Of a DNA stretch of 43,499 nt, positions 4,883 to 43,499 are shown piece after piece. Within the stretch, counting starts at the first letter, position 1; each line of letters starts with the position of its first letter. The position numbers and the translations under genes were made by a program. The DNA is taken from positions 1 through 43,499 of IMG/VR virus record IMGVR_UViG_3300021061_000010, one strand, 5' to 3'. A model generated the notes under the pieces. The model ran no database searches. It saw only the letters and a program-made list of their open reading frames with translations, and was not told where the DNA came from. Origin of the DNA: a virus.

Positions 4883-6289
4883 ATGGCAATCACGGTCACC
4901 ATCGAAGGCACGGACCGCACCACTGCCGTCGTGTTCAATAGCCTCCGTAAGACTGACACGCTCAACCAGCAGATCGACACGCTGGAATTCAAGGTGCGCA
5001 AGTACGGCTCCCTCACCTACGTCCCGGTACTCGGCGATGAGGTGATTGTGGAGCGGGACGGCACGCGGCTCTTTGGCGGCGTGGTGGTGCGCATCCACGA
5101 GGCGCTGCGCTCGGCGAAGATCCTGGAGTACACGGTTCAGTGCAACGACTATTCGCAGTTCCTCAAGCGTGAGCTAGTCACGGAGCGCTACGAGAACCAG
5201 ACCGTTGCCCAGATCATCGACGACCTCATCGCCACCTACACGACGGACGGCTTCACGGATGACGGCGTGGTCGGCACGCTGACCATCGAGAGCATCTCCT
5301 TCAATCGCCTCAACGTCGCTGACTGCTTGCAGAAGCTCGCCGATGCGATCTCCTACGTCTGGTACGTGGACTACAACAAGGACATCCACTTCTTCCCGAA
5401 GAACGAGGAGGTGGGCAGCAGCCTCACCGACAGCTCCCAGAACTACATCTTCGACAGCCTGGAGATCGTCGAAGACCTCACCCAGATCCGCAACAGCGTG
5501 CTGGTGCAGGGCGGGGAGCGGGTCAGCGACACCACGCGCACCGAACTCTTCTCGGGGGACGGCACCCGCACGCAGTTCGCGCTCGCCAATAAGTACGATT
5601 CGACGCCGGCCGTGGAGGTGGGCGGTGTGGCGCAGACCGTCGGGGTGGAGTTTCTCGACGACGATGCGTCTTTCGACGTGATGTGGAACTTCAATGAGAA
5701 GTACCTGCGCTTCACCGCGGGGAACACCCCGGCCTCCGGCACAAACAACATCGAGGTGACCGGCACCTACCTCTTCCCCATCGTTGTGCAGGTCCCGAAC
5801 AACGCCTCGATCAACGAATTCGGGCGCTACGAGTTCGCGATCACGGACCGGAGCATCAAGAGCCAGGACGAGGCCGTGAAGCGCGCTGTGGCGGAACTCA
5901 CCAGCTACCAAAATGAACTGTACGAGGGCTCCTTCCGCACCTACACGGATGGCTTCCGCTCCGGCCAGGTCATCACCATCAACTCCGCGCAGCGCGGCAA
6001 GAACATTGACGTGCTGATCCAGTCGGTGACGGCCACCATGCGCGATCCCACCGGCACCCAGCTTGAGTACCACGTGCGCTTCGCGACGCTGAAGTCCATC
6101 GGCATCATCGAGTACCTCCAGAACCAGCTCCGGTCCAAGGAGGTGATCGTGGACGACCAGGAGACGATCCTGAGCTTCCAGGCGCTCAGCGACACGCTCG
6201 CAACGTCCGACAGCATCGCGACGCCGACGACTTCGACCGGCCCATACACCTGGGGCAACTTCGACTGGGGATATGGAGTGTGGGGCTAG
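4883..6289 (+). CDS. Tail hub / gp27-like baseplate protein with inserted beta domain
   Basis: A 468-residue protein two bases after the tape measure. The N-terminal half resembles phage late-control D/gp27-type hub folds: an N-terminal strand, then GDEVIVERDGTRLFGGVV, then the DCLQKLADAISYVWYVDYNKDIHFFP segment typical of hub proteins. Residues about 215-300 look like an inserted beta-sandwich (GDGTRTQFALANKYDSTPAVEVGG) similar in style to one inside the connector at 42160. The C-terminus ends in an aromatic and glycine-rich tail (GNFDWGYGVWG). Likely the central hub at the tail tip. Confidence 0.75.
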   Translation: MAITVTIEGTDRTTAVVFNSLRKTDTLNQQIDTLEFKVRKYGSLTYVPVLGDEVIVERDGTRLFGGVVVRIHEALRSAKILEYTVQCNDYSQFLKRELVTERYENQTVAQIIDDLIATYTTDGFTDDGVVGTLTIESISFNRLNVADCLQKLADAISYVWYVDYNKDIHFFPKNEEVGSSLTDSSQNYIFDSLEIVEDLTQIRNSVLVQGGERVSDTTRTELFSGDGTRTQFALANKYDSTPAVEVGGVAQTVGVEFLDDDASFDVMWNFNEKYLRFTAGNTPASGTNNIEVTGTYLFPIVVQVPNNASINEFGRYEFAITDRSIKSQDEAVKRAVAELTSYQNELYEGSFRTYTDGFRSGQVITINSAQRGKNIDVLIQSVTATMRDPTGTQLEYHVRFATLKSIGIIEYLQNQLRSKEVIVDDQETILSFQALSDTLATSDSIATPTTSTGPYTWGNFDWGYGVWG

Positions 6290-6307
6290 GTGTATAATGA
6301 TGAAGCT

Positions 6308-6514
6308 ATGGTGAAACGCCTTCAGGAGATCAACGGCGATACCGTGCTCGAAATCACGCACGAGGCGCCCCTGAAGACGCGCCTTTCTGAAAAGACGCTG
6401 CTCCGGCAGAAGCAGTACCTCCTCGATTCCATAGCCACATTTCAGCGGACGCTCACGGAGGTGGAGGCGTCGCTCAGTTTGATAAACGAAGAAAGGAATG
6501 CGCAGGCTAAGTGA
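6308..6514 (+). CDS. Small coiled-coil tail protein
   Basis: Sixty-eight residues, strongly helical with heptad character (LLRQKQYLLDSIATFQRTLTEVEASLSLI). ATG 6308 is preferred over GTG 6290 because TATAAT (6293-6298) lies 9 bases upstream and would fall inside the longer version. It overlaps the next gene by 17 bases. Function unknown; probably a short structural or attachment coiled coil of the tail tip. Confidence 0.65.
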   Translation: MVKRLQEINGDTVLEITHEAPLKTRLSEKTLLRQKQYLLDSIATFQRTLTEVEASLSLINEERNAQAK

Positions 6515-6962
6515 GGCGACAGGTGTACAGGGTTTTCTTACGATAACGAGATTTCGTGACAGCGTTCCCATTTGGAGATCTGAGCCGCTCCCCAACAAGG
6601 TAGTGATGGGCGCCGCGGGGTACGGGCGCAACCTGCTCGCGCGCAAACTCGCCGGGGACAACACCTTCGCGATCGAGATCGACAGCGCGAGTATCGGGGA
6701 TAGCGGCACCGCGGCTGCCGACCCGCAGACCGACCTCCTCAGTCCGCTTGTGGAAGACATCCCGATCACGAACAAGGTGGCGGTGGACGACGAGGTCACC
6801 GTGGACGTGTTCATCGCCGACGGCAACCTGCCCGATGATACCTATCAGGAGTTCGGTCTGTTCTGCGACGGGCGCTTGTTCGCCCGGATCGTGATCTCCC
6901 CGGCCTATACCAAGGCATCCGGCGAGGACACGCTTTTTACTTACGTGCTAACCCTCACCTAG
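6498..6962 (+). CDS. Tail tip / baseplate-associated protein
   Basis: A 154-residue protein following the hub gene. The segment FRDSVPIWRSEPLPNKVV with GAAGYGRNLLARKLAGD resembles tail-tip proteins found between hub and fibre genes in other phages. The C-terminal half is beta-rich (VTVDVFIADGNLPDDTYQEF, RIVISPAY). The start overlaps the upstream coiled-coil gene. The role is inferred from position, likely linking hub and receptor-binding proteins. Confidence 0.55.
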   Translation: MRRLSEATGVQGFLTITRFRDSVPIWRSEPLPNKVVMGAAGYGRNLLARKLAGDNTFAIEIDSASIGDSGTAAADPQTDLLSPLVEDIPITNKVAVDDEVTVDVFIADGNLPDDTYQEFGLFCDGRLFARIVISPAYTKASGEDTLFTYVLTLT

Positions 6963-6963
6963 T

Positions 6964-7650
6964 ATGGCGATCACCACAGGTCAAAATGCAGCAGCAGGCG
7001 ATTTCGTAAGTTCCTCGGCGGGTGCCGCAGACTCGGGGAAGGTGCCGAAGCTCAACGGCAGCGGCAAACTCGACGGCTCCTTTTTTAAGAACCCTATCGT
7101 TCGGGTCTATACGTCGGGCGCCACGTGGTCCAAGCCATCCGGTCTTGCCTATGTCATCGCCGAAGTGGTCGGAGGCGGCGGCGCAGGAGGGTCGTCAGGT
7201 GACACGGCCTCGGGTGCCGGCGGAGGTGGAGGAGGCTACGCCCGCAAACTCATTGCCGCAGCATCACTGGGGAGCAGCGAAACCGTCACCGTGGGCGCCG
7301 CGGCAGGCACAAGCTCGTTTGGCTCGCACGTGCAAGCGACGGGTGGCGCAAATGCGTCGGCCGATACACCTGGAGCTGGTGGAGTCGGATCGCTCGGCGA
7401 TTTGAATACTGAGGGAGCGGATGGCGGCAATGGATCGGTCAGCACGTCGTCGGCGCCAGGGGGGACGGGCGGCAGCTCTCACTATGGGGGCGGAGGTAGG
7501 GGCGGCGTGGGCAACAACGCCGGTACTGCAGGCAACAACTACGGCGGCGGTGGTGGCGGCGGTGGCGCAGATGGGACCGGCTCCGGCAGCTCGCAGTCCG
7601 GTGGAGCCGGAGCTTCGGGCGTGGTGATCGTCACCGAGTACTACGACTAG
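6964..7650 (+). CDS. Glycine-rich tail tip / receptor-binding protein
   Basis: A 228-residue protein. After a short N-terminal attachment region (to about residue 50: GAADSGKVPKLNGSGKLDGSFF) it contains a glycine-rich domain with many GG runs (about residues 68-222) ending in the strand GASGVVIVTEYYD. This matches the glycine-rich domain at the tips of several phage fibres, where polyglycine-II helices expose host-recognition loops. It starts one base after the preceding stop. Likely a true adhesin carried on the virion. No export signal, in contrast to the next three long genes. Confidence 0.75.
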   Translation: MAITTGQNAAAGDFVSSSAGAADSGKVPKLNGSGKLDGSFFKNPIVRVYTSGATWSKPSGLAYVIAEVVGGGGAGGSSGDTASGAGGGGGGYARKLIAAASLGSSETVTVGAAAGTSSFGSHVQATGGANASADTPGAGGVGSLGDLNTEGADGGNGSVSTSSAPGGTGGSSHYGGGGRGGVGNNAGTAGNNYGGGGGGGGADGTGSGSSQSGGAGASGVVIVTEYYD

Positions 7651-7652
7651 CC

Positions 7653-8027
7653 ATGCGCCACTTCCGCCAGCTCACCGACAGCACCATCAAGGAGATCTAT
7701 GCCGGCTACCTGTTGAATGAGCCGAAGCTCGCCATCGCCCGGCGCCTGTCGATCGACAACTCCACGGTCCACTACCACATCAAGAAGATCAAACACCTGC
7801 CGCGCGAGCAGCTCATCACCCTGTTCCGGCCCAAGTGCAGCGACGGCCACACGTCCTTTCATTGCGGGGTGTGTGGAAGTGCCTTTGATAACATTAAGAG
7901 CAATGAATTCTACGAGATTCTCCGGCTCCGGCAGCTCGTCGCGGATTTGCAGCGGCAGCTCAGTCAAAGGGTTTCTGTTCCCAATTTTCGCCCTGCTGCT
8001 GGCGGGATTCTTCGCATCATCGGCTGA
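7653..8027 (+). CDS. HTH plus zinc-ribbon small regulator
   Basis: A 124-residue protein. The N-terminal half reads as a helix-turn-helix of the Trp-repressor/transposase-like type (TIKEIYAGYLLNEPKLAIARRL, SIDNSTVHYHIKKIKH). Residues about 61-76 carry a Cys/His cluster (C, H, H, CGVC) that could bind zinc. It starts two bases after the glycine-rich gene, and its last 125 bases overlap the start of the large fibre gene in another frame. A DNA-binding role, perhaps at late promoters, is possible but is inference. It is the only HTH protein embedded in the tail operon. Confidence 0.65.
   Translation: MRHFRQLTDSTIKEIYAGYLLNEPKLAIARRLSIDNSTVHYHIKKIKHLPREQLITLFRPKCSDGHTSFHCGVCGSAFDNIKSNEFYEILRLRQLVADLQRQLSQRVSVPNFRPAAGGILRIIG
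7872..7902 (+). promoter_or_regulatory. Late promoter, TGTGGA-N11-TAACAT type
   Basis: TGTGGA (7872-7877), 11 bases, TAACAT (7889-7894), 8 bases, ATG 7903. The geometry equals that of the promoters at 1460, 37139, 39227 and 42129. It lies inside the coding region of the HTH protein and supports ATG 7903 as the fibre start. Confidence 0.6.
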
Positions 8028-11000
8028 CGCGCAGGTCGTTCCTCCCACGCGCGGCGGCCTCGGTACCAGCACACCGCCGACCTATGGCCAGATCCCCGTC
8101 GGCAATGCCAATGGGACGTACACCCTCACGAGCACGTCCTCCCTCGGCATCACGGGAAGTGGCGGTGCCGGTACTCCCGGCGGCTCAGACACGCAGATCC
8201 AGTTCAACGACGGCGGGAGCTTCGGCGGGGATGCAGCACTCACCTACAGCAAGCTCCTCGATCGCCTCTCCGTCTCCTACGCCTCGACGACCGCGCAGAC
8301 CATCTCCGGCTCACTGTACCTGGGCTCCCTCACGGGCGTCTTGCAGGCGATCGGCGGCCTGGTCTCGGCGACGAGCACCATCAGCCAGGCGTTCATCGAC
8401 AGTGCCATTGCGCGTGACAGCGAGCTGCACGACGAGGTGACGCTCGCCGGCACCCCCGACTACATCACGATAGCCAACCAGGTCATAACCCGCGGCCTCA
8501 TCGACCTCACGACCGATGTCACGGGCGTTCTGCCGGATGGGAACGTGGCAGACACGATCACGCTGACCAACCTCACCCAGATCACCAACCGCGCGATTTC
8601 AGACACGACCGGCACGCTCACGGTGAGCCGCGGCGGGACCGGCGCTACCACGCTCAGTTCCGGGCAATTGCTCTATGGCGCCGGCACAGGAGCGGTCCAG
8701 ACGGTCGCCACAACCACGCTGTCAGCCAGCTCGCCGCTGTCCCTCTCAGCCAACACCGTCGTCATCGGCTCTTCGCCGATCACCCTTTCCATAAGCACCG
8801 CGGGCACCTGGTCAGGCAACGCCGGCACGGCATCGGCACTGGCAGCCAATGGCTCCAATTGCTCAGCCGGGCAGTTTCCGCTTGGCGTGAGCGCCGCAGG
8901 TGCGGCCGAGAGCTGCACTGATGCGTGGACGGAAGCCGAGAACACGGCCGCTGCCTATGTCAGCACGGTCGGCGTCAATTCCTTCATCCACGGCTCGACG
9001 ACGATTCCCAAGACCTACACCAGCAACACCTTTGGCGGCACGCAGACCTTCTCGAATACGATCAGCGGCAGCGTCTCTGGCACCGCGTCCGCCCTTTCAG
9101 CCAATGGCACGAACGCTTCGGCCGGCAACGCCATTGTCGGTGTGGACGCCTCCGGCAATGCCGAGGGCGCCTTTGACGTGTGGACTGAGGCGGAGAACAC
9201 CGCTGCGGGCTACCAGACGCAGGCCGAGGTGAATGCCTTCATCCACGGCTCCAGCACGATTCCGAAAACATACTCGGCGAATACCTTTACGAACACCGGC
9301 ACTACGAGCTTCGCTGGCGGCCTCACGGCTTCTCGACTCGACGCGTCGGCAACCTCAACGTTCGATGGCCTCGTCGTGGCGACGGGTGGCCTCAAGGTCT
9401 CCACGCTCGTCTCCTGCAACACGGTGGACACCGACGCTTCAGGCAACTTCATCTGCGGTTCTGATGCGACGGGAGGCGTCGGAGGTGGCGCAAGCAGCAT
9501 CGCCACATCGAGTCCCGAGACCTCTGGCCAGGTTCCCTACTGGACCTCGACCGGAGGAACACCGGCGACCTTGGGCAGCGACAGCGGCCTAGCGTTTGAT
9601 GCTGCGACCGACGTTCTGAGCGTCGGCGGGTGGGCTATCGCCACATCCTCGGTTGTGTGCGCCGTTGGCTGCGAATTCACGAGCATACCGACTGCACTCG
9701 CTTCACTGCCCTCCGGCGGCGGCGAGGTCCGGCTCAAGAACGAGACCTACACCCTCAGCAGCCCCCTCCTTATCGACAAGAGCCGCGTGTCTATTGTCGG
9801 CGAGGGCCGCTCCACGGTGATTGCCTTCAATGCATCAACGACACCAGTCGGCATCACCAACTCTGACTATGACACCCAGCTCAACTGGATCAACCTGGAG
9901 AACTTCGTCATCTCGCAAATCGGCGCGGCGGGGTACGGCACCTGCATTGACTACACTGAGATGGCCAACAGCACGTTCACGAACGTCGATTGTCTCAACG
10001 CCAACATTGGCTATATCGCTTCGACGACGAACACGCACTACAACACGATCATTTCACCGACGATCACCGTCAGCGGTGCTGGAGCGCGCGGATTCAGTGT
10101 CGAGAATAACGCCATTTTCCAAACCCTCATCAACGCGCGCATCAATCCGGGGACGCAAGGGACCGGCATCTACGTGGACGCTCACGCTTTCCATTGCGAG
10201 AGCTGCGAGGTAGAGACCAACGCCCTTATCGGCGTCGATGTCGGCTCAAATGGCCACGACGCCGAACTGGATGTGTACCTGGAGGGCAACGCGACAAACC
10301 TGCGCCTCGCCTCCGGCGTCGAAAACGTCCGCGTCACCGGCTTCATCGCGGACGCCGACACAGTGGCCCAGAACATCGTGGATAACGGCGTGCTCGGCCT
10401 TTCGGTCGATGCCCGCGTGCAATACGAGCCGAAGAACTACATCACTGGCAACAACTTCGGACTCGGCACGACGACCCCGAGCAAGCTTCTGTCAGTGGCC
10501 GGTAGCAGCATCTTCGCCATTGGTGACATGACGATCGACGGCAGCGACATCCTGTTGCGCGGCACGGCGGCCGACATCCGCTCTGACACGGATCTCGACC
10601 TCTATCCCGATAACCAGACCACTCGCGCCCTGCGCATCGACGACGCCACGACGCGGATAGATCTGAGCGCGCTCGGCGGAAACCTCGGCATTGCGGACAT
10701 CATCGAGCAAACCGCGTCCGGCACATCGACATTTGCCAGCTCACTCGATTCCGCTGCGGACATCGAAGCCGATCAGTTCTTTGGCACAGGCTCAGGCACT
10801 TCAACCTTCACCGGTGGCATTCGTGCACCGATCTTCAACGCCACGTCCAACACTGCGTCATCCACCTTCGCCAACGGCATCAACCTCACCGCAGGCTGCT
10901 TCGCGGTCTCCGGCTCGTGTCTGCTGGTGAACAAGGATCACCACTCATTCCCAAACTGGGCCTCAACGACGCCCATGATGCGCTCCTCGATCTACGCCTC

Positions 11001-11274
11001 GGCCGCATCCTCAACCATGGAGTGGTGCCCCGCCCGCTCAGGAACGATCATCGGCATCCGGGGCAAGGTCCGCACCGGCACGAGCCTGCTCTTCGCCTTC
11101 TCCGCCGCAGGCACGGCGACCTCGACGGCCTCACTCACCACAACGAATGGCCTAACGACCTTCTCATCCAACAACACCTTCACGAAGGGGAGCTGCCACT
11201 TCATTGAACTCGGTTCCGGCTCTGGGAATCCTGACGACGCTTCATTCTCCCTCGATGTTACGTACACGAATTAA
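7903..11274 (+). CDS. Large exported fibre/spike-like protein with beta-helix
   Basis: A 1123-residue protein. Residues about 18-43 form an export signal (KGFLFPIFALLLAG, then SSADA-Q as a likely cleavage site), unusual for a tail protein. S/T/G-rich repeats with GTSTPPT, STF and TTTPSK motifs follow, including an imperfect tandem repeat of about 85 residues (8822-9333). A region from about residue 580 to 830 (FTSIPTALASLPSGGGEVRL, then repeated short strands) resembles a pectate-lyase-like right-handed beta-helix, the fold of many tailspikes. GLGTTTPSKLLSVAG and STFANGINLTAGCF recall, from memory, Parcubacteria surface proteins. It could be a virion spike or a protein displayed on the lysogen surface. 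Confidence 0.7.
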   Translation: MNSTRFSGSGSSSRICSGSSVKGFLFPIFALLLAGFFASSADAQVVPPTRGGLGTSTPPTYGQIPVGNANGTYTLTSTSSLGITGSGGAGTPGGSDTQIQFNDGGSFGGDAALTYSKLLDRLSVSYASTTAQTISGSLYLGSLTGVLQAIGGLVSATSTISQAFIDSAIARDSELHDEVTLAGTPDYITIANQVITRGLIDLTTDVTGVLPDGNVADTITLTNLTQITNRAISDTTGTLTVSRGGTGATTLSSGQLLYGAGTGAVQTVATTTLSASSPLSLSANTVVIGSSPITLSISTAGTWSGNAGTASALAANGSNCSAGQFPLGVSAAGAAESCTDAWTEAENTAAAYVSTVGVNSFIHGSTTIPKTYTSNTFGGTQTFSNTISGSVSGTASALSANGTNASAGNAIVGVDASGNAEGAFDVWTEAENTAAGYQTQAEVNAFIHGSSTIPKTYSANTFTNTGTTSFAGGLTASRLDASATSTFDGLVVATGGLKVSTLVSCNTVDTDASGNFICGSDATGGVGGGASSIATSSPETSGQVPYWTSTGGTPATLGSDSGLAFDAATDVLSVGGWAIATSSVVCAVGCEFTSIPTALASLPSGGGEVRLKNETYTLSSPLLIDKSRVSIVGEGRSTVIAFNASTTPVGITNSDYDTQLNWINLENFVISQIGAAGYGTCIDYTEMANSTFTNVDCLNANIGYIASTTNTHYNTIISPTITVSGAGARGFSVENNAIFQTLINARINPGTQGTGIYVDAHAFHCESCEVETNALIGVDVGSNGHDAELDVYLEGNATNLRLASGVENVRVTGFIADADTVAQNIVDNGVLGLSVDARVQYEPKNYITGNNFGLGTTTPSKLLSVAGSSIFAIGDMTIDGSDILLRGTAADIRSDTDLDLYPDNQTTRALRIDDATTRIDLSALGGNLGIADIIEQTASGTSTFASSLDSAADIEADQFFGTGSGTSTFTGGIRAPIFNATSNTASSTFANGINLTAGCFAVSGSCLLVNKDHHSFPNWASTTPMMRSSIYASAASSTMEWCPARSGTIIGIRGKVRTGTSLLFAFSAAGTATSTASLTTTNGLTTFSSNNTFTKGSCHFIELGSGSGNPDDASFSLDVTYTN
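8822..9333 (+). repeat. Tandem repeat inside the fibre gene (about 255 bp period)
   Basis: Two consecutive segments encode GTASALAANGSN...WTEAENTAAAY...FIHGSTTIPKTY and GTASALSANGTN...WTEAENTAAGY...FIHGSSTIPKTY. The protein identity is high in the WTEAENTAA and FIHGS blocks and low between them, as in diverged fibre shaft repeats. Confidence 0.75.
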
Positions 11275-11638
11275 AACCTGGCTCCTCTGGCTCTTCATAG
11301 GCGGTGTTGCGCTGGCTGCGCCGCTTGCGTTTGACGAACAGCAGGAAGCCTCAAGCGGTATCGACATCAGCAGTACGGCTTCACAGCAGACGTGCCTCTC
11401 CTTTGCAGGGCACGGTACCGACGAACAGGGAAACCTCTACATTCTGGGAACGGACGGCGAGCGCTACGACATGCCCAAAGGGGACATCGCCGCTGAGAAC
11501 GTTCCTGAGAAGGCCGAAACGCAGCTTGAGAGCACGATGGCACGCCGCATCGAGCAGAAGTTCTGTCTTCCGGAGGGGCAGATCGAGGTGGACATCCAGA
11601 ACGGCAAATTCGTAAACATCACATGGTACAACCGCTAA
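11255..11638 (+). CDS. Small exported protein of the fibre locus
   Basis: A 127-residue protein with an N-terminal hydrophobic signal (RIKTWLLWLFIGGVALAAPLAF, residues about 5-26). The mature part is acidic, has two cysteines, and ends in a beta-prone stretch (GQIEVDIQNGKFVNITWYN). ATG 11255 is chosen because it places the basic residues directly before the hydrophobic core; it overlaps the fibre stop by 20 bases. Family unknown. As the middle of three consecutive exported proteins it may be a chaperone or partner of the two large ones. Confidence 0.65.
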   Translation: MLRTRIKTWLLWLFIGGVALAAPLAFDEQQEASSGIDISSTASQQTCLSFAGHGTDEQGNLYILGTDGERYDMPKGDIAAENVPEKAETQLESTMARRIEQKFCLPEGQIEVDIQNGKFVNITWYNR

Positions 11639-13947
11639 AGTATCTCTTCCTCGTCGCCCTGTTTTTCCTCCCGCTCACTTCGGAAGCGGCCTTTGTCAAC
11701 GTGATAGGGTTCGAGACGCAAGACACCACCGAGGCGGCGGCGACCTCCGGCACGCTCTCCGTTACATCCTCGAGCACACACAGCGGCATCTTCTCCCTGA
11801 ACTCCACTCCCGCTACCACCAACAGCGGCACCTACACCATTGCGCCCGTGATCGCGAGTGGCGCCTCCTCGTTTACGAGCTGCTGCGGCGGGGACGCCGG
11901 GGTGTTCGGCTTCTGGTTTAATGCCGCGGTTTTACCGGCAAGCGAGGAGAAACTCGTTATCATCGGCAACAGCCTCGCCTTCGTAACCATCCAGCCCGAC
12001 GGTTTGCTTGGCTTCTACGACAACACCCCGCAGACGGGCCTCGGCACGACGACGCAGGCCTGTGCCGCAGATACGTGGTGCTTCATCGAAGTCAGGACAG
12101 ACACCAACGGCGCGGGGGACACGGAAATCCGCATCAATGGTGTCTCGGCCTTCAGTGCCTCCACCAACTACGCCACGGGTGCCTTTGACCGCGTGACGCT
12201 CGGCAAGAGCAACATGAACGGCAACACGGTGAATTTTTACTACGACGACTTCTACTGGACGGACGGCACTACGTTTCTCCCCAATGCGATAAACAGCAAA
12301 ATCGCCCGCATCATGCCCAATCAGCCGGGAACCTCCTACACAGGCTTTGCGGGCGGCACGGCGGCGGGCTACGCGGCTACGTCGGACTTTGGTGCAACCG
12401 ATGGCGATACTTCCTACGCTCTGTCCTCGACGAGCGCTGACGACCTCGTGGCCTATGAGATGGAAGATGCGCTGATGCGCGGCATCACAGGCACCGTGCA
12501 GACGCTCAAGGCGCACACACGGCTGCGCGACAATGTAGGTACCGCTTCCACCTCCGCCATTTTCCTGCACTCGGGCGGCACTACGGCCTCGACGACAGCC
12601 GTTGACCCCGGCTTTAACTATCTGACGTGGGTGAAAATGTTTGATACTGACCCGGCAACGGGCGCGTCGTGGACGGTTTCGGGCATCGACGGTGTGGAAC
12701 TGGGAGCGGCAGTGAACACCGCCAACCTCATCGCTATTCGCCTTTCCACCGTCTACGGCATGGTGTACTACGCTCCCGCAGCACCCTCACCGCTCCTCTC
12801 CGCCTTCTCCTACTGCCGGGAGATGACCATGACCGCCGGAGGCGACAGCGGCGGCGCGGCGACGACGACCACGCTCGGCATCCCGCTCTTTGCCTCCACG
12901 ACCATCTCCTCTTTTGCGGCGACCTCCTCGGGTGGGAGGATACAGAACGTCGCTTCGGCCACGGATTTCGAGACGGAGCGGCCCGTGGACTTCATCGTCA
13001 CGAGCGATAGCGATTGTAGTTTCTCCGGGGGAACGCTGCTGGATTTCTTTACGGAGAAGTACGCCTCGACGACGGGCGAGGTGCACTTCTGGCACCGCAA
13101 TATCGATGTGTCCTCCACGACGGCCAAGCAGGTGAACATCTATTACGGGCTCGCCACGACGACGGAGTTCCAGCGCAAGAGCGAGGTGTTTAATTCACTG
13201 AACCAGCGCGCCGTCTTTGACACCAGCAGCACGGCCATAAGTTCCCGCCGCGCAGCCGTGTTTGACTTGGGGCCATTTAAGCACAACGCCTCGACGACGG
13301 GCGACATGGCGGTGGTGGACGGGCAGGTGGGGACGGCGCTTCAGTACGATGGCACCAACGACTTCATCCAAAGCGATGTTCACGTCATGCGCCGCGATAG
13401 CGAGATGTCCATGATGATGTGGGTGCAGACCGCCAGTTCTACACACGGCACCATGGGCCTCATCAGCATAAGAGCCATTGGGGATAGCGGTGCCAACAGT
13501 ATCTTCGACCACTACCTCGCCTCAACCAAAAGGCCCGGATTTCGCTTCCGGTTTCTTTTCGTAGACGCCACCAATGCCATCACTGCTAACAAGTGGCACC
13601 ACGTCGTCATCACGCGCAAGGACGGCACGAACGTCGGCTGTGAAATCTACATCGACGGCGCGGCAGACCCCGGTTCGTGCGCCAGCTCAGTAAATACCTT
13701 CAAAAACATCACAAACCGCGCGTGGACGCTCGGGCGCTCGTTCACTGATGCCAATAGTGGCGTGTTCGAGGGAAGTATGGACGACATACGCTGGCACGGC
13801 GTTGTACTCGATCCGATGGACATCCTCACTACCTACAACAACACCGCCTCATCGGAGACGTTTTGGGATTTCGGTGCTGAGGAGACGCAAGCTGCGGAAG
13901 AAGGAACAGTAAACCCCGACAGGAATCGTAAGCTCTTCATGTTCTGA
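11623..13947 (+). CDS. Large exported LamG / DUF2341-like adhesin
   Basis: A 774-residue protein. An export signal lies at residues 1-23 (KYLFLVALFFLPLTSEA-A). A first lectin-like jelly roll covers about residues 24-220, a DUF2341-like segment about 400-540 (ERPVDFIVTSDSDCSF, VHFWHRNIDVSSTTAKQVN), and a C-terminal LamG/concanavalin-like domain about 560-745 (GTALQYDGTNDFIQ, MSMMMWVQTASS, KWHHVVITRKDG, FEGSMDDIRWHG). Such domains bind glycans or surface proteins. The start overlaps the previous stop by 16 bases. It may be a virion receptor-binding protein or a lysogen surface adhesin. Domain names are from pattern recognition only. Confidence 0.75.
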   Translation: MVQPLKYLFLVALFFLPLTSEAAFVNVIGFETQDTTEAAATSGTLSVTSSSTHSGIFSLNSTPATTNSGTYTIAPVIASGASSFTSCCGGDAGVFGFWFNAAVLPASEEKLVIIGNSLAFVTIQPDGLLGFYDNTPQTGLGTTTQACAADTWCFIEVRTDTNGAGDTEIRINGVSAFSASTNYATGAFDRVTLGKSNMNGNTVNFYYDDFYWTDGTTFLPNAINSKIARIMPNQPGTSYTGFAGGTAAGYAATSDFGATDGDTSYALSSTSADDLVAYEMEDALMRGITGTVQTLKAHTRLRDNVGTASTSAIFLHSGGTTASTTAVDPGFNYLTWVKMFDTDPATGASWTVSGIDGVELGAAVNTANLIAIRLSTVYGMVYYAPAAPSPLLSAFSYCREMTMTAGGDSGGAATTTTLGIPLFASTTISSFAATSSGGRIQNVASATDFETERPVDFIVTSDSDCSFSGGTLLDFFTEKYASTTGEVHFWHRNIDVSSTTAKQVNIYYGLATTTEFQRKSEVFNSLNQRAVFDTSSTAISSRRAAVFDLGPFKHNASTTGDMAVVDGQVGTALQYDGTNDFIQSDVHVMRRDSEMSMMMWVQTASSTHGTMGLISIRAIGDSGANSIFDHYLASTKRPGFRFRFLFVDATNAITANKWHHVVITRKDGTNVGCEIYIDGAADPGSCASSVNTFKNITNRAWTLGRSFTDANSGVFEGSMDDIRWHGVVLDPMDILTTYNNTASSETFWDFGAEETQAAEEGTVNPDRNRKLFMF

Positions 13948-13948
13948 T

Positions 13949-14188
13949 ATGGACGGCGAAACGATACAAGCCGTGGCGCAGCTTGGAGGAACGGTCTTCA
14001 CCGTCGCACTTTTCATTTGGTATCTCATGCACAAAAACGGGAAACATGAGCGCGCGTGGAAGGAAGTTTCTGACGGACTCAACCATTTCCGGAAAGCGCA
14101 GGAGAAACACACTAGGGTGCTTATCAATGTCTCCAAGGCTCACGGCCTTATAGGAGATGCAGACGATTTAACCAACGACGAGGTATGA
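13949..14188 (+). CDS. Holin-like / lysis-cassette single-TM protein
   Basis: Seventy-nine residues with one membrane helix (about 9-29, GGTVFTVALFIWYLMHKNG) and a basic, helical cytoplasmic part. It begins one base after the adhesin gene and overlaps the start of the endolysin by 4 bases (ATGA), the classic lysis-cassette order. It could be a holin, antiholin or i-spanin analogue; topology alone does not decide. Confidence 0.6.
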   Translation: MDGETIQAVAQLGGTVFTVALFIWYLMHKNGKHERAWKEVSDGLNHFRKAQEKHTRVLINVSKAHGLIGDADDLTNDEV

Positions 14189-14793
14189 AATCACTCACGG
14201 CCCTCTTTGTAGGTATGACCGAATCAAATGTTTCGCAGCGCTACCACGCCGCGCACCGCTCCATTGACGTGATAGGTACACCCCGACAGCTCCCCAGCGG
14301 GATCTTCACCGTCGGCGGTACACCACTCTGCGCTCCCGAAATGTCCCGCATTGACATGATCGTGGGCGACACCATCACCCCGGGCCACACGTGGAATCTC
14401 AAGCGTGGGTACGGTCTGTGGATGACCGGGCTTGAGACCGGCAAGGTCCACTTCTTCTGGCACACGCAGCCTGTCTTCCCCGTCTGGGGCGGCGACATCG
14501 TGAAGCGCGGGCAGATCGTCGCGTGGATGGGCAACGCGGGCACCGTGAAGGTCAACAATGTGCTCGTGCCACTCTCGGAACGCACCAAGGAGCCCTACCC
14601 TGGCACGCACGTCCACTACACCCTCTATCCTGCCGGCCACACGCCAGGCGTCCACGACGAGTACGCGATCAACCCCCTCGACCACATCAACTTTAGTTGG
14701 CAGCCGCAGTACAGCAGAATTGACCAGCTAAAGGCGATAAGCGCGACCCTGTTGAAAACTCAGAAGCTCATCGCCAGGGGCAAGGTACAATGA
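14185..14793 (+). CDS. M23-family (LytM-like) peptidoglycan endopeptidase, endolysin
   Basis: A 202-residue protein with M23 zinc-peptidase hallmarks: HRSID (residues about 29-33, the HxxxD metal pair), GQIVAWMGNAGT before the third site, and the HxH motif in GTHVHYTL (near residue 153). It would cleave peptide cross-bridges in peptidoglycan. There is no signal peptide, so it depends on the neighbouring membrane proteins for release. The start overlaps the upstream gene (ATGA). M23 endolysins are less common in phages than lysozymes or amidases but well established. Confidence 0.75.
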   Translation: MKSLTALFVGMTESNVSQRYHAAHRSIDVIGTPRQLPSGIFTVGGTPLCAPEMSRIDMIVGDTITPGHTWNLKRGYGLWMTGLETGKVHFFWHTQPVFPVWGGDIVKRGQIVAWMGNAGTVKVNNVLVPLSERTKEPYPGTHVHYTLYPAGHTPGVHDEYAINPLDHINFSWQPQYSRIDQLKAISATLLKTQKLIARGKVQ

Positions 14794-14799
14794 AGGCAT

Positions 14800-15012
14800 A
14801 TGCGATATGGATACTCGTTCAGTAAGAGCATCGCCAAAGGGTTTTACACCGCGCTTAGTGGCCTCGTCGTCATCGTCGCCTTCACGGCGTTCTCTGACAT
14901 GACCCTGTGGGGTTTGCTGGAGACGTACGTGAAGCCGATCTTCGGCAGCCTTACGGTCGTCGGTGCTCTCCGCGCGCTTCAGAACTGGGTCAAGTACAAC
15001 TACTTGTCCTAG
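14800..15012 (+). CDS. Holin-like two-helix membrane protein
   Basis: Seventy residues with two hydrophobic helices (about 14-32 and 38-58) and charged ends (MRYGYSFSKSIAKG, ALRALQNWVKYN), a class II holin-like topology. TACAAT (14786-14791) lies 8 bases before ATG, so it may have its own leaderless promoter, but it lacks the upstream TGTGGA. It follows the endolysin by 6 bases. It would form membrane holes or depolarise the membrane to release the endolysin. Confidence 0.65.
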   Translation: MRYGYSFSKSIAKGFYTALSGLVVIVAFTAFSDMTLWGLLETYVKPIFGSLTVVGALRALQNWVKYNYLS

Positions 15013-15042
15013 GTGCTCTGCTCACCACAAACTGACTTTCTC

Positions 15043-15156
15043 ATGTACGTAGGGCTCGCGCTCTGCGTCTTTATGGTGCTGCTGTATATCGGCTACTTCC
15101 TCGCTGAGCTACGAAAGCTCCCACAATACACGGATGAGGATCATCAGCCCGATTAG
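15043..15156 (+). CDS. Very small membrane protein of the lysis cassette
   Basis: Thirty-seven residues: one hydrophobic helix from the N-terminus to about residue 21 (MYVGLALCVFMVLLYIGYFL), then an acidic tail. It is the last + strand gene of the late operon before the minus-strand block. Function unknown; a holin regulator or spanin-like role would fit its place. Confidence 0.5.
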   Translation: MYVGLALCVFMVLLYIGYFLAELRKLPQYTDEDHQPD

Positions 15157-15169
15157 CCCCCACATGATC

Positions 15170-15322
15170 TTATCCGTGAGCTTCATGTGTTTTCTCTAAT
15201 GCGGCATCAATGGCCGCTATCTGCTTTTTTATTGTTTCATAGAGCGCAAGCTTCGGGGAAATGCCCTGGAGCTGAATGACCAGCTCGTGCCGCTGCACGT
15301 ATAAGCTGTCTCGAGTTTTCAT
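15170..15322 (-). CDS. Small helical protein (50 aa)
   Basis: Fifty residues (MKTRDSLYVQRHELVIQLQG... IDAALEKTHEAHG), helical with coiled-coil character. It begins five bases downstream, on the minus strand, of the tRNA-like element, whose end forms its upstream region. A longer reading frame exists but would run through the tRNA-like element and is less likely. Function unknown. Confidence 0.5.
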   Translation of the reverse strand: MKTRDSLYVQRHELVIQLQGISPKLALYETIKKQIAAIDAALEKTHEAHG

Positions 15323-26346: not shown

Positions 26347-27648
26347 TTGCACGTGACCTACCCTATCGGACAAAGGACAACAGGTGATGTCCTTTTGCTA
26401 TCGGACAACGAGCGCCGCCGGCACATCTACCTCATCGGCAAGACCGGCACCGGCAAGAGTTCACTCCTGCACAACATGATGATGGCCGACTTCCATGCCG
26501 GCCGCGGTTTTGCCTTTCTCGATCCCCACGGTACTGGCGCGGAACAAATCATAAACGCGACGCCGACCACGCGTACCAACGATGTCCTTTACCTCGACCC
26601 CCTCGACCCTTCACACGTCGTAGGGTTTAACCCGCTCATCCGCGTCCCGCCGCTCGACCGTGCCGCACTTGCGGATAACATTGCGGCGCTCCTCAAGTAC
26701 ATCTGGGCCGATAGCTGGGGCGTGCGCCTCAACTACATCCTCACGAACGCCTTGCGCCTCTTACTGGAGAAGCGCGGCACCACGCTCGTGAACCTCTCGC
26801 GCGTCCTCATTGACGAGGAGTACCGCAAGCGGCTCCTCACCCACTGCACGGACGGCGCCATCACGACGTACTGGAAGACCGAGTTCATGAGCTACAGCCC
26901 GAGCTACCGCGCCGAGGCGATCGGCGCCGTTCAGAACAAGGTGGGGCAGTTTCAAAACAATCCCATTCTCCGCGCCGTCTTCGGCCAGGTCTCCGGGGCC
27001 ATCCACCCCTACGACATCATGGAGCACCGCCGCGTCCTCATCGCCGACCTCAGCAAGCGCATGGGCGAGGAGCCGTCGCGCATTCTAGGCTCTCTCCTCA
27101 CCACGGCCTTCTCCCAAGCCGCCGAGCGCCGCCGCACCATAGCCGAGGAGAAGCGTCAGGACTTCACGCTCTACCTCGACGAGTTCCAGTCCTTCACCTC
27201 AGAGAGCATGGGCACGATCCTCAGCGAAGCACGTAAGTGGCGCCTCAATCTCGTGCTCAGTCATCAATTCATGGACCAAATCCCCGAGAGCATCCAGCGC
27301 GCGGTGATCGGCAACTGCGGCACGCTGATCGTCTTTCGCGTGGGCTCGTTCGACACGCCCATTCTCGGCAAGGAGCTGGGATTACCAAATCCCAGCACGC
27401 TCTCCGACACCTCCAACTTCCAGGCGTGGGTGAAGCACCTCGCCTCGGACACCCCGAGCGAGGCGCTGCCCGTGACGATGCTGCCGCCGCAGGTGCCGCC
27501 GGAGCCCCGGAGGGGTGCCGTAGTGGCCCGGAGCCGCGCGCGGCACGCCAAGAAGCGGGACGACATCGAGCGCACCCTCGCGCCGCAGCTCGCCTACCAG
27601 CTGAAGAAGCCAAAACCTAAGAACAAGGCCACATCCCGCGAATGGTAG
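26347..27648 (+). CDS. VirD4/TraG-HerA-type DNA-translocating ATPase (soluble)
   Basis: A 433-residue ATPase from TTG 26347 (GGAGG 7 bases upstream). Walker A is GKTGTGKSS (31-39) and Walker B is TLYLDEFQSF (near 278); a conserved DPHGTG follows Walker A, and GNCGTLIVFRVG resembles sensor strands of the type IV coupling/TraG-HerA family. No membrane helix is visible. These hexameric motors push DNA through membranes or pores. Two such motors in a tailed phage is unusual; terminase is separate. Basic Lys-rich tail at the C-terminus. Confidence 0.8.
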   Translation: MHVTYPIGQRTTGDVLLLSDNERRRHIYLIGKTGTGKSSLLHNMMMADFHAGRGFAFLDPHGTGAEQIINATPTTRTNDVLYLDPLDPSHVVGFNPLIRVPPLDRAALADNIAALLKYIWADSWGVRLNYILTNALRLLLEKRGTTLVNLSRVLIDEEYRKRLLTHCTDGAITTYWKTEFMSYSPSYRAEAIGAVQNKVGQFQNNPILRAVFGQVSGAIHPYDIMEHRRVLIADLSKRMGEEPSRILGSLLTTAFSQAAERRRTIAEEKRQDFTLYLDEFQSFTSESMGTILSEARKWRLNLVLSHQFMDQIPESIQRAVIGNCGTLIVFRVGSFDTPILGKELGLPNPSTLSDTSNFQAWVKHLASDTPSEALPVTMLPPQVPPEPRRGAVVARSRARHAKKRDDIERTLAPQLAYQLKKPKPKNKATSREW

Positions 27649-27719
27649 GACTACGCCTTTTCTCCTATTGCGCGAGCAACTTACGATAGTTCCCAATTCT
27701 CCCAATTAGGGAGGAGCAC

Positions 27720-28079
27720 ATGCGCGTGTCGATTAACCACAGCGAGAAGCAAACCGGCGTCTTCAGGAAGACGACGCACTATATCGTCACCGTCAAGGTG
27801 GATTTCTCCGAGGAGGAGAAAGCGATCATCAAGCAGCGCGACCTCAAATCCACGGTGATCATGACGCGCAGCACACCCTCTCACATCAATACCAGCATCG
27901 ACGACATCTGGGACCTCACCATCTCCAAGCTCCTCAGCGGCCCCGACGATTACGGTCTGGAGACGCTCGCCAAGGCCAAGGACTATGAGGAGGTACTCAT
28001 CGATAGTCTCAAGGAGCTGAAGGATTACATTTCAGCGAACGAGGAGGTCGAGGAGAAGTCAAAGAGCTTCGAGCTGTAG
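27720..28079 (+). CDS. Small protein between the two DNA-transfer ATPases (119 aa)
   Basis: A 119-residue protein (MRVSINHSEKQTGVFRKTTHYIVTVKVDFSEEEKAIIKQRDLKS...). GGGAGGAG lies 5 bases before ATG. N-terminal strands and C-terminal acidic helices. Its stop overlaps the GTG of the second ATPase by one base. Possibly an accessory or adaptor for the ATPases; no family recognised. Confidence 0.55.
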   Translation: MRVSINHSEKQTGVFRKTTHYIVTVKVDFSEEEKAIIKQRDLKSTVIMTRSTPSHINTSIDDIWDLTISKLLSGPDDYGLETLAKAKDYEEVLIDSLKELKDYISANEEVEEKSKSFEL

Positions 28080-30163
28080 TGGCCGAGCGCGAGAACACCC
28101 CGTTTTGGGAGGGGCTGATCACGATTGTCGGCGTGCTGAGTTTGCCGCTGGTGATCGTGTTCACTCCCTTCTGGGGTATGTGGGCGGCGATCCGCACCTA
28201 CCTCGACAGCGAGGGGCCGCAGGAGCGCAAAGCCAAGGAACAGACGCACGCGCTGTACCAGCGTGCTCTCGCGCTCTCGCAGGCCGGCGCGTTCCCCGAC
28301 AAGGTGAAGTTCGGCCGCGCCATCGTCGAGAAGCTCCCCGAGCAGTATGCGCCGTACTTCGATCCCATCGTCTACACGCTGCTGGACCTCTACGACGCCG
28401 AGGTTCCGCACGGCGATGTCATCCCGCCACCACCGCCGCAGTGCGACAGCATCGAGGGCGGCCGGTATCGCGACTTCCTCAACCAGTACATCTACAAGCA
28501 CAGCAACCAGAGCCACTCCCGCATTGCCGTGGACGTCATCGTGCGTTCCTTCCGCGCATTCATCGAGGCGCTGCCCGAACCGCAGGAAGACGACGAGGCG
28601 CTGTTCAGCACGCCCATCACCACGCTCATACGTCCGCACGAACTTATCGAGGACCTGCTGCGGCCCTACTTCGAGCCCCAGGCTGACGAACTCTTCAAGG
28701 ATCTCCGTCGCACGCTGGAGCGCAATGTGCAGTCAGCGTCCGGCGCCGGCCGCACCAAGAATGCGCGTCTCATTCCGCCGTCCGAATACGATGGCGATGA
28801 CGTCGTTCATCAATATCTGCGCAACACGCCCTTTGAGCAGCTTTTCAACATCAAAATTCCGCTGGCGATCCCGGCGAAAAAATGGTTCGAGCACGCGGTG
28901 ATCTGGGGCACGCCCGGTAAGGGCAAGACCACCCTCATTCAGGCGCTCATCGCCAACTTCCTGCCGGCGGTCGCACGCGGCGAGGCGTCGATCTTCCTCA
29001 TGGACAGTCAGGGCAGCGCGCCGAAGTCGCTCATCCACTCCGTCTCCAACCTCAAGGAATTTGCGCCCGGCGGATCGCTGCATGGACGCTTGATCTACGT
29101 CGAGCCCGACCCCACCAACCCCATCGCGATGAATCCGTTCCTCATGGGGCGTGACCGCGACAAGCAGTACACCGCGCGCGACCGTGAGCAGCTCCACAAT
29201 CAGACGATCGAGTTGCTTGCCTACATCTTCTCCGCGCAGGGGGAGAACGCCGCGTTCACCAACAACCAGGCCATCCTCTATCGCTGGACGATTGAGCTGC
29301 TGCTTCTGCTGCCGAACCCCAACCTGACCACGTTTCTCAAGATCATGACCGAGGGTGTGGAGCCGTACAAAGCCGAGATCGCGCAGCTCTCCGAGGCTGG
29401 CCGCACCTTCTTCGAGAAGCAGTTCAATCAGGGCCAGTTCAAGGACCGCCGCCCCGAGGTGGCCGCGCGTATCTCCGGCATCCTCCAGAACAAGGCGCTC
29501 GCCGCGATGTTTGACGCCGCGACGTGCAAGCTCGACCTCTTCATTGAGCTGTCAAAGGGCCGCGTCATCATCGTGGACACGGACAAGAACTACCTCGGTG
29601 ACGACCGCTGCACGCTGTACGGCCGCATCATGCTCGCGCTCCTCTTGCGCGCCTCGCAGGAGCGCACGGCCACATCCGACCGGAAACCTGTGTACTGCTT
29701 CATTGACGAGGCCGCGGACTACCTGAAGGCCGATCCGAAGTTCACCTTCCTGATTGACCAAGCGCGCAAAAGCAACGTCGCGATGATCTGCGCCAGCCAG
29801 CGCACCGGCCACATCCAGAGCCCGAACGTGCTCGACGCGCTCTCCGGCGTCTCCATCCACTTCGTGAGCACGAACAACGACAGCGACGCTCATAAGTTCG
29901 CGTCGATCATGCACACCAGCGCCGATTTCCTGCGGAACCAGCCGGAATACCACTTCGCCCTGACCGTGGACCGCTTCATCAACCGCGCCGTCTCCGTGCG
30001 CGTGCCTCTCACCCTGAGTACGCGCCAGTGGATGACGCACGGCGAGTTCGATGAGATTAAGCGCGACATGCACGCGCGCTACTCCGACCAGCCGCCCTCA
30101 CCCTCTACCCAGCCGCCGCCTAATTCACCGACCACCCCGCCGGCAACGCCGAGCACGTGGTGA
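28079..30163 (+). CDS. Membrane-anchored VirD4/TraD-like coupling ATPase
   Basis: A 694-residue protein from GTG. N-terminal membrane segment(s) at about 11-38 (EGLITIVGVLSLPLVIVFTPFWGMWAAI), a helical region, then Walker A GTPGKGKTT (about 277-285), Walker B CFIDEAADYL (about 538-547), and ASQRTGHIQSPNVLDALSGV near the C-terminal domain. A proline/serine-rich tail ends it. Membrane anchoring plus the motor is the architecture of conjugative coupling proteins that feed relaxase-bound DNA to a type IV secretion channel. It is adjacent to a relaxation-type replication protein, supporting a transfer or plasmid-maintenance role. Confidence 0.8.
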   Translation: MAERENTPFWEGLITIVGVLSLPLVIVFTPFWGMWAAIRTYLDSEGPQERKAKEQTHALYQRALALSQAGAFPDKVKFGRAIVEKLPEQYAPYFDPIVYTLLDLYDAEVPHGDVIPPPPPQCDSIEGGRYRDFLNQYIYKHSNQSHSRIAVDVIVRSFRAFIEALPEPQEDDEALFSTPITTLIRPHELIEDLLRPYFEPQADELFKDLRRTLERNVQSASGAGRTKNARLIPPSEYDGDDVVHQYLRNTPFEQLFNIKIPLAIPAKKWFEHAVIWGTPGKGKTTLIQALIANFLPAVARGEASIFLMDSQGSAPKSLIHSVSNLKEFAPGGSLHGRLIYVEPDPTNPIAMNPFLMGRDRDKQYTARDREQLHNQTIELLAYIFSAQGENAAFTNNQAILYRWTIELLLLLPNPNLTTFLKIMTEGVEPYKAEIAQLSEAGRTFFEKQFNQGQFKDRRPEVAARISGILQNKALAAMFDAATCKLDLFIELSKGRVIIVDTDKNYLGDDRCTLYGRIMLALLLRASQERTATSDRKPVYCFIDEAADYLKADPKFTFLIDQARKSNVAMICASQRTGHIQSPNVLDALSGVSIHFVSTNNDSDAHKFASIMHTSADFLRNQPEYHFALTVDRFINRAVSVRVPLTLSTRQWMTHGEFDEIKRDMHARYSDQPPSPSTQPPPNSPTTPPATPSTW

Positions 30164-30169
30164 GCGTGG

Positions 30170-30175
30170 TATAAT
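30170..30175 (+). promoter_or_regulatory. -10 box before the replication-relaxation gene
   Basis: TGGTATAATATACT contains TATAAT (30170-30175) with a TG just upstream. About 100 bases of leader separate it from ATG 30276. I see no strong -35. Confidence 0.5.
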
Positions 30176-30275
30176 ATACTCACGCACATTTGATCTAATC
30201 TCACGTTAGCTCCCGTTCGCACCTCGCCCTTCCGCCCTCTTTACATCCTCCGGCCGAGCGTGAACGACATGCTCT

Positions 30276-31304
30276 ATGCAGCGCGACACCCTCAACAGAA
30301 GGAAGCGATTCCACAAGCTCCCCGGCAAGACGAAGCACACCGGCGAGCGCCGGCAGCTCGAGATCACCGCGCGTGACGTCGCAGTCTTCAAGATCCTCGC
30401 GCGCTACCGCTACCTGCCCATCGACTTTATCTGGCGGCTGCTCCCCGCCGACATCCGCGGCACCTGCTACAAGCGCTTTCAGGAGCGCATGGGCGAGCTG
30501 CACCACCAGGACTACCTCAACCGTCCTCGTGCTCAGCGCCGTTCGGAAAACGCCAAATCCCGGCCGTTAATCTACGAACTCGGCTCGCAGGGCAAGGCCG
30601 AGTGCCGTGCGCGCGGCATCGAGATCTATCCCCGCCTCTCTGACCGGCAGCAATTTCCCCACGACCTCATGGCCTGCATGGTCATGGCCTACATCGAGAT
30701 CGCCTGCGCGGAGACCCAGGGCTTACAGCTCGTGACGTGGGAGGACATCTTAGAGCACCCCGCCACACCCGAAGTTCTCCGCGCGTCGAAGCATCCGCTC
30801 TCAATTCCCAAGATTCCCATCCGGCTCAACGGCACGAGCGTCTCCGCCAAGCGCGATAGTCGCCCCTTTGGTATCCGGGGCTATGGCGATGGAGGCAACC
30901 ACTACGCCTTCTGCTCGACCGGCATTGAAGCCGACTGTTCCAATGAGCCGCTTCGTCCGTCGGACATTACTGCCCGCGCCAACATCGAGGCGAAGCTCCG
31001 CGGCTACCTCTACATCGAGGAGGAGAAGGTCTACCAGACCCACTTCGGCTTTCCGAACAACCTCGACTTCTTCATCACTACGAGCAAGCGTCGTATGCGC
31101 AACATCATGCAGCTCTTTTCTGATCTCACGGGAGGTAAGGGCGCTGATCACGTCCTGTTTGCTTACCTACCTAACATGAACTCTGTCGAGACCGCGCCGG
31201 AGCCCAACGCCGAATTCTTCCTCCAGAACTTTGAGCGCGTGGGCCATCCGCCGTTCAACATCATCAACGAGCTGCACGCCGCACTACAAAAAGGGGCCGC
31301 ATAG
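30276..31304 (+). CDS. Replication-relaxation family protein
   Basis: A 342-residue protein. The N-terminal winged helix (ITARDVAVFKILARYRYLPIDFIWRLLP, about 29-57, then CYKRFQERMGELHHQDYLNRP) is typical of the replication-relaxation (plasmid replication/relaxase accessory) family. The remainder is alpha/beta with HDLMACMV (near 130). Such proteins start or assist plasmid replication or mobilisation and often neighbour TraG-like ATPases. It probably acts at an origin, perhaps in 24717-24965. Confidence 0.7.
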   Translation: MQRDTLNRRKRFHKLPGKTKHTGERRQLEITARDVAVFKILARYRYLPIDFIWRLLPADIRGTCYKRFQERMGELHHQDYLNRPRAQRRSENAKSRPLIYELGSQGKAECRARGIEIYPRLSDRQQFPHDLMACMVMAYIEIACAETQGLQLVTWEDILEHPATPEVLRASKHPLSIPKIPIRLNGTSVSAKRDSRPFGIRGYGDGGNHYAFCSTGIEADCSNEPLRPSDITARANIEAKLRGYLYIEEEKVYQTHFGFPNNLDFFITTSKRRMRNIMQLFSDLTGGKGADHVLFAYLPNMNSVETAPEPNAEFFLQNFERVGHPPFNIINELHAALQKGAA

Positions 31305-36691: not shown

Positions 36692-36720
36692 CCGGGCGCT
36701 GCTCAATTTGGGGGATGTTC

Positions 36721-43400: not shown

Positions 43401-43499
43401 GCATTCAACTCATCAAGAATCGCATAAAGACGAACCTCGACGCTCTCGTCACTGACGAGGTGTTGGGGGGTGCCACGTCCACTGACATCCGCAAGGACC
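43373..43499. repeat. Terminal overlap, right copy (circular contig)
   Basis: Identical to bases 1-127. It contains the end of the gp10-like gene and the first 103 bases of the tail terminator gene, which continues at base 128. Confidence 0.95.

Follow-up and report, generated by a model that had tools for sequence, protein, structure and literature searches.

The window analysed here, i.e. the whole stretch of 43,499 nucleotides held as IMG/VR virus record IMGVR_UViG_3300021061_000010, carries an exact direct repeat of 127 bases at both ends (1–127 and 43373–43499). On account of this terminal repeat, the record is regarded as a complete genome of ~43.4 kb, probably circularly assembled. An HK97-type head module (portal, 37105; protease, 39258; capsid, 40165) was identified, together with genes for terminase (35266), tape measure protein (3375), baseplate hub (4883) and a glycine-rich tail fibre (6964). 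A tyrosine integrase is encoded at 22740, and the phage is temperate. In the region 26347–31304, two genes for ATPases matching TrwB- and FtsK-like families (PF10412, PF01580) precede a Replic_Relax gene (PF13814), a conjugation- or plasmid-like set within a phage genome.

Among the tail and lysis genes, three consecutive open reading frames (p1, p2 and p3) encode proteins predicted to be exported (Table 1). They overlap by 20 (p1/p2) and 16 bases (p2/p3), which agrees with the overlapping coding unit described in an earlier note on this DNA and is in line with a single transcript. One base downstream of p3 the holin-like gene begins, followed by the M23-like gene. The 5' end of p1 sits inside the preceding HTH gene, such that the 3' end of the latter and the signal-coding start of p1 overlap by 125 bases. 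The HTH protein, encoded between tail fibre and p1, contains several cysteine and histidine residues. By eye, the genes at the corresponding position in the prophage regions G167 and G227 resemble the tail fibre gene. A late promoter postulated in the earlier note was not recovered by a scan of positions 6200–15200 for sigma-70-type promoters, the only type covered (0 sites vs 2.2 by chance); terminator-like sites numbered 9 in the locus scan vs 6.4 expected (sd 2.5).

Table 1 Features between the conventional tail fibre gene and the lysis genes
Feature	Position	Strand	Evidence
Ordinary tail fibre, 228 aa, glycine-rich	6964..7650	+	phrog_863 (E 1.2e-29), PF21722 (E 4e-6); without export signal
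Small HTH protein, 124 aa	7653..8027	+	PF13936 (E 1.5e-4), below cut-off
p1, predicted exported fibre-like protein, 1123 aa; signal residues 1–43; mature Cys 14	7903..11274	+	Signal rule, Cys count, relatives
p1 stretch with Cys-pair module (C-x17-C, then WTEAEN)	8803..9018	+	Module instances in relatives
p2, predicted exported protein, 127 aa; mature Cys 2	11255..11638	+	Signal rule, Cys count
p3, predicted exported protein, 774 aa; mature Cys 8	11623..13947	+	Domain matches, signal rule, Cys count
Holin-like membrane protein, 79 aa	13949..14188	+	phrog_20 (E 0.0072), weak
M23-peptidase-like protein, probable endolysin	14185..14793	+	PF01551 (E 0.014), below cut-off

Searches of Pfam and PHROG with p1 returned no match and no recognised virion-docking domain, and sequence searches of the PDB with p1 and p3 were likewise without match. 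In its N-terminal half, p3 is similar to a protein encoded in the tail gene region of Brevundimonas phage Delta; its C-terminal half comprises a weak DUF2341-like stretch and a LamG lectin domain. The earlier designation of p3 as LamG/DUF2341-like thus holds for LamG (PF13385, E 4e-17; 63.2 bits vs a cut-off of 27.6), and not for DUF2341, which remains under the curated cut-off (PF10102; 18.0 vs 23.4 bits). In viral contigs, no relatives were found for p2 and none for the whole of p3; two weak ones were obtained with the N-terminal half of the latter. Single-sequence structure models were unusable (C-terminal half of p1, pLDDT 35.8 and pTM 0.26; p3, 30.0 and 0.22).

The N-termini of p1–p3 are each composed of a positively charged n-region, a hydrophobic core and an A-x-A-like site at which cleavage is plausible. 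Scored by a rule of our own (charged n-region, h-region of 8–14 residues and −3/−1 rule; not SignalP), they attain 12.3 (p1), 11.0 (p2) and 11.3 (p3), under a rule that treats cleaved signals and uncleaved N-terminal anchors alike. In 2000 random draws per protein at unchanged composition, the observed score was reached 0 (p1), 3 (p2) and 0 (p3) times. The three N-termini belong to real open frames at the positions in Table 1, and the export signals claimed in the earlier note are confirmed as strong and of Sec type by this rule. Thirty-eight genes of the window were scored, four of which yielded a score in addition to p1–p3: those at 14185 (6.5), 41710 (8.6), 36715 (10.3) and 14800 (11.2). 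Above 9.5 are only a lipoprotein-like gene (LLAGC; 36715–37062), located between terminase and portal, and a gene for a small membrane protein (14800–15012). TMP, hub, portal, protease, MCP and the 228-aa tail fibre are without signal score, the gene at 41710 being the sole head or tail gene outside p1–p3 to have any. Since the ATG at 7903 is the only start of p1 before the h-region (no further ATG, GTG or TTG intervenes), its n-region is unusually long (23 aa).

Sequence modules of p1 are shared with fibre genes of other phage contigs, and two classes of relatives were distinguished in IMG/VR. Class A matches p1 residues from about 165 to 450, including the cysteine module (see below), and comprises 34 loci; L094 (other end of the L097 contig), L157 (contig of L085) and rows matching SDTQIQFND only were left out. 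Class B matches only residues from about 47 to 125, i.e. the SDTQIQFND part, and is based on 80 of 172 relatives, of which 71 were used (nine with a match within about 1.2 kb of the locus start were omitted) and 69 scored (two were without closed 5' end). At a cut-off of 10, signals were assigned to 29 of 34 class A fibres (27 of 32 after dropping two near-identical copies) vs 3 of 69 class B fibres from these 80 of 172 relatives (Fisher p 3e-17). No signal was called in the class A members L096 and L099 (both with a hydrophobic, uncharged N-terminus), L100 (9.7 at the cut-off of 10), L101 (none) and L158, the last having a signal at a later start only. The premise of the earlier note that phage fibres normally lack a signal is borne out by the low count among the SDTQIQFND-only fibres and agrees with a passage in PMC6199706. 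The long n-region of p1 and its position inside another gene could point to chance or a mis-called start; this is contradicted by the random draws and by the recurrence of signals in the class A relatives, and is very improbable.

Predicted export also extends to the neighbours of class A fibres. For the comparison of neighbours and cysteines, 52 class B loci were retained (the three signal-bearing ones and near-copies judged by eye were left out), and the class A near-copies L091 and L168 were likewise omitted; the signal cut-off was 9.5 for neighbours and for listed runs of exported genes. The directly downstream gene scored as exported at 16 of 21 class A loci vs 0 of 31 signal-less class B loci; the class B figures of 0/31 and 0/42 both refer to signal-less fibres from 80 of the 172 relatives. 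Control genes of at least 300 aa at more than 6 kb from a class A fibre carried a signal in 1 of 38 cases. Runs of exported genes encode proteins of 520 (the fibre), 158 and 260 aa at L090, 643, 156 and 422 aa at L093, 134, 659, 132 and 321 aa at L095, and 449, 122 and 380 aa at L170. A late-gene context is provided by terminase, head-tail connector and major head genes (L095), a portal (L093) and a weak virion match (L166); five of ten context genes tested near class A fibres were without match. L087, L100 and L106 share their whole late region. Otherwise, few neighbours are common to groups of three or more of the compared loci, and class A is therefore considered to be spread over many phages without close kinship. 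In all, the same export and cysteine pattern was observed in about 30 other phage contigs.

At several loci (L089, L090, L163, L169), a LamG lectin is encoded after the exported fibre. As a mark of class A, LamG was rejected, being present in 8 of 34 class A vs 8 of 32 class B contigs (the latter from 80 of 172 relatives). Genes preceding class A fibres gave weak tail or virion matches at L086, L096 and L161 and a short match to a tail family at L162, to which Pfam adds nothing; with matches in 4 of 10 genes, three of them weak, a split fibre with a non-exported docking protein ahead of the exported one is not claimed. A C-terminal motif shared by the exported proteins was not convincing.

Among GenBank phages, a short module query, inherently weak, gave no match at E up to 1, and a longer one gave partial matches to a Limnohabitans phage and five others. 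Nine annotated phage records with partial relatives of class A fibres or p3 were inspected: the matched fibre was never signal-bearing, and the two of 58 scored CDS that did score as signals were other genes. A phage-like contig binned as Nitrosomonas (L143, 7056–12020) has three consecutive signal-like genes (163, 1286 and 212 aa) in its fibre region. Giant fibre-repeat proteins are encoded in a Zambryskibacteria MAG (L144, 7604–19978) and on a contig binned, possibly wrongly, as Hyphomicrobium (L145, 8168–12922); by eye, both show an HTH-like stretch and a membrane segment at the N-terminus.

Mature p1, p2 and p3 each possess an even number of cysteines (Table 1). At 1.30, 1.89 and 1.06 per 100 residues, respectively, their cysteine density is 3–6 times that of other virion genes (thirteen other head and tail proteins pooled: 12 in 3841 residues, 0.31 per 100). 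A repeated module of p1, NCSAGQFPLGVSAAGAAESCTDAWTEAEN, holds a C-x17-C pair; one copy has both cysteines and one has neither. Eighteen distinct instances ending in a WTEAEN-like motif comprise 13 with both, 5 with neither and 0 with one cysteine. A profile search extended these to 61 distinct instances (45 both, 5 neither, 8 gapped, 3 both but with the second cysteine off-register), none of which has a single cysteine only. Such joint presence or absence is the pattern that a disulfide gives. Mature class A fibres with signal and closed frame have an even cysteine number in 20 of 22 cases. Since class A was found through a cysteine-bearing module, a selection bias exists that is only partly removed by counting the residual cysteines; these occur in 22 of 22 fibres and are even in 20 (p 6e-5). 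Outside signal and module, the median is 1.07 per 100 aa in class A vs 0.17 in class B (from 80 of 172 relatives). The 30 scored exported neighbours of class A fibres (one more was without signal call) have even (15), odd (3) or no (12) cysteines; among the 52 class B fibres, from 80 of 172 relatives, 13 are even, 17 odd, 15 without cysteine and 7 cut.

Sec export of p1–p3 is thus well supported as a prediction, owing to the three signals, the paired and even cysteines and the recurrence of this pattern across many other phages; disulfide bonding is likewise well supported at the sequence level. Alternatively, p1–p3 could be ordinary cytoplasmic virion fibres that dock in the baseplate via hydrophobic N-termini and are never exported. 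The modules common to p1 and non-exported fibres speak for this, as does the match of the N-terminal half of p3 to a signal-less protein beside minor tail genes in phage Delta. It is nevertheless a decidedly unlikely explanation: the cysteines are even and paired, the canonical signal layout is found on two or more adjacent genes, and the split between classes A and B would be left unexplained.

The host of the phage is most likely a member of the Patescibacteria, as judged from portal and capsid matches to prophages of this group. Of 286 Patescibacteria genomes, placed in this phylum through the Candidatus Parcubacteria record L142, four contain portal matches with E 4e-107 to 3e-128 and 35–39% identity (seven have a match when any E up to 0.001 is admitted), and the capsid is 41–49% identical in the same four genomes. 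For comparison, the best portal value was E 7e-19 in the phylum of a Nitrosomonas MAG (299 genomes) and E 2e-17 among the best 20 of 404 matches in GenBank phages. The two patterns tried for a tRNA 3' end gave no clue to the host. By eye, the prophages G155, G167 and G227 keep the order portal, protease, capsid, tape measure, hub, small protein and tail-fibre-like gene. In these three, lysis-like genes follow the tail-fibre-like gene with no exported fibre between, and a search of their genomes with p1 found nothing; in G211, G236 and G016 the stretch read stops before the cassette position or differs. As the cassette is missing from related prophages, p1–p3 are regarded as an accessory block beside a conventional tail fibre. 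Genes of 156 aa (L185, 1936–2403, in G155) and 193 aa (L186, 18929–19507, in G167) after the tail genes score as signal-bearing (by eye) and may specify exported lysis enzymes.

An accessory cassette in a phage with an integrase could also serve the lysogen. As surface adhesins of the producing cell, p1–p3 would form a lysogenic-conversion cassette like lambda Lom and let the lysogen stick better to other cells, which would suit an episymbiont. This is supported by L142, an exported protein with the same repeats that is encoded on the chromosome of a Parcubacterium, and by the absence of the cassette from G155, G167 and G227. It is also in keeping with PMC12911398 (2025), where a contribution of Patescibacteriota phage lectin genes to host adhesion is proposed. 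On the other hand, the cassette lies in an overlapping tail-lysis operon in which the sigma-70-type scan found no promoter-like site, and p1 and p3 have no obvious C-terminal anchor by eye. Moreover, among the 32 class A virus contigs, some of which may be partial, a recombinase over cut-off was detected in just 4: a tyrosine integrase in three (G309, G317, G321; a fourth is below cut-off) and a serine recombinase in one (G306). Twelve of the 32 exceed 35 kb, and 8 of these 12 have neither. Lysogenic conversion is therefore unlikely as a general function, and the prevailing lack of an integrase argues for a role in the lytic cycle, with the reservation that contigs may be incomplete. Display by lysogens, which the earlier note offered beside presentation for cell-cell contact and virion proteins with a membrane step, is thus disfavoured as a general function and conceivable for the present temperate phage; on the whole we regard producer-cell display as somewhat unlikely, albeit the main rival of the reading given next.

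The reading we favour, tentatively and with slightly less than even confidence, is that p1–p3 constitute a late-made, Sec-exported and disulfide-bonded adhesin set that acts outside the producer and probably joins or accompanies virions at lysis. As an accessory cassette between tail and lysis genes of a Patescibacteria phage, it would probably be co-transcribed late with both, the late timing being suggested by gene order. The products would be exported by the Sec route, cleaved and disulfide-folded outside the cytoplasm, with p1 as the fibre, p3 as a lectin-bearing partner and p2 as a small helper or linker. Leaving the cytoplasm before lysis, they could not be built into tails there; most likely they would meet the progeny virions at lysis, join or accompany them, and so supplement the conventional non-exported tail fibre with glycan or receptor binding. 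This would explain the fibre-type modules, the gene position and the presence in phages without integrase. The final attachment site is the weakest step. Several observations count against this reading: the genome also contains a conventional tail fibre, so p1–p3 are not needed as sole adhesin; p1 has no recognised docking domain; the genes ahead of class A fibres gave few and mostly weak tail or virion matches; LamG is no more frequent in class A than in class B contigs; and the cell-encoded relatives in Patescibacteria favour surface display. Released decoys represent a further, unlikely alternative, in which exported fibres would coat receptors on the producer, its debris or neighbouring cells and limit superinfection or the loss of virions on debris. 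Export, the lack of a recognised docking domain and the occurrence in integrase-less phages would fit such a role; large multi-gene clusters would be costly for a decoy.

Tailed-phage tails are taught as cytoplasmic products, and a division of fibres into an exported, clustered type rich in cysteine and a non-exported type poor in cysteine is unexpected on these grounds. Export-tagged fibres occur in many unrelated uncultured phages, which points to a class of phage adhesins whose maturation takes place outside the cytoplasm. That a widespread class of tailed phages adds Sec-exported, disulfide-bonded fibre and lectin subunits to virions at or after lysis, with assembly split across the membrane, is possible and is put forward with more doubt than confidence. 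Passages in PMC6199706 take the lack of signal peptides in phage DGR target proteins as support for phage origin, and PMC8144416 reports that most cellular DGR targets have signals or TM regions. Exported fibres make the absence of a signal peptide a weaker criterion for phage origin, and genes for exported fibres or lectins may be wrongly annotated where they are assigned to the host or to auxiliary metabolism. Patescibacteria live by attachment, and exported adhesins made by phages may alter who sticks to whom; PMC13059738 reports surface-targeted adhesin-like giant proteins in a patescibacterium. Among the papers listed by a search of open-access literature, with preprints and most subscription journals outside its scope, no account of Sec-exported fibre clusters was recognised for tailed phages, and the novelty of the class is considered provisional.

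Among known systems, pIII of filamentous phages is, like p1–p3, a phage adhesin with signal peptide and disulfides, but its assembly occurs in the membrane of phages that have neither tail nor lysis cassette. PblA and PblB of a streptococcal phage resemble p1–p3 in being phage proteins of tail-fibre type with an extracellular adhesin function, but are not known to carry signal peptides and exit through holin and lysin. Lambda Lom and other lysogenic-conversion adhesins share with p1–p3 an exported adhesion protein carried by a phage, the lom gene presumably also lying near tail fibre genes. In contrast to Lom, p1 and p3 are fibre and lectin proteins rather than outer-membrane barrels, no promoter of its own was found for the cassette by the scan used, and most class A contigs are without integrase. 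In the relevant passages, Pbl is named in PMC3975094 and Lom is listed as an adhesion gene in PMC8065619. The cell-encoded exported fibre-like protein of Patescibacteria (L142) agrees with p1 in repeat type and signal; it differs in being chromosomal and in its C-terminal region, which is S74 chaperone-like by eye, a domain for which Pfam gave no match in p1. The ConA-like lectin genes of Patescibacteriota phages in PMC12911398 share the LamG-type lectin in phages of this phylum; the words signal peptide, tail and fiber do not occur in its main text, and no exported cluster is described in the relevant passages. With conventional tail fibres of tailed phages, p1–p3 have in common modules such as SDTQIQFND and the position among tail genes, and they differ from these by their Sec signals, their high and even cysteine content and their exported neighbours.
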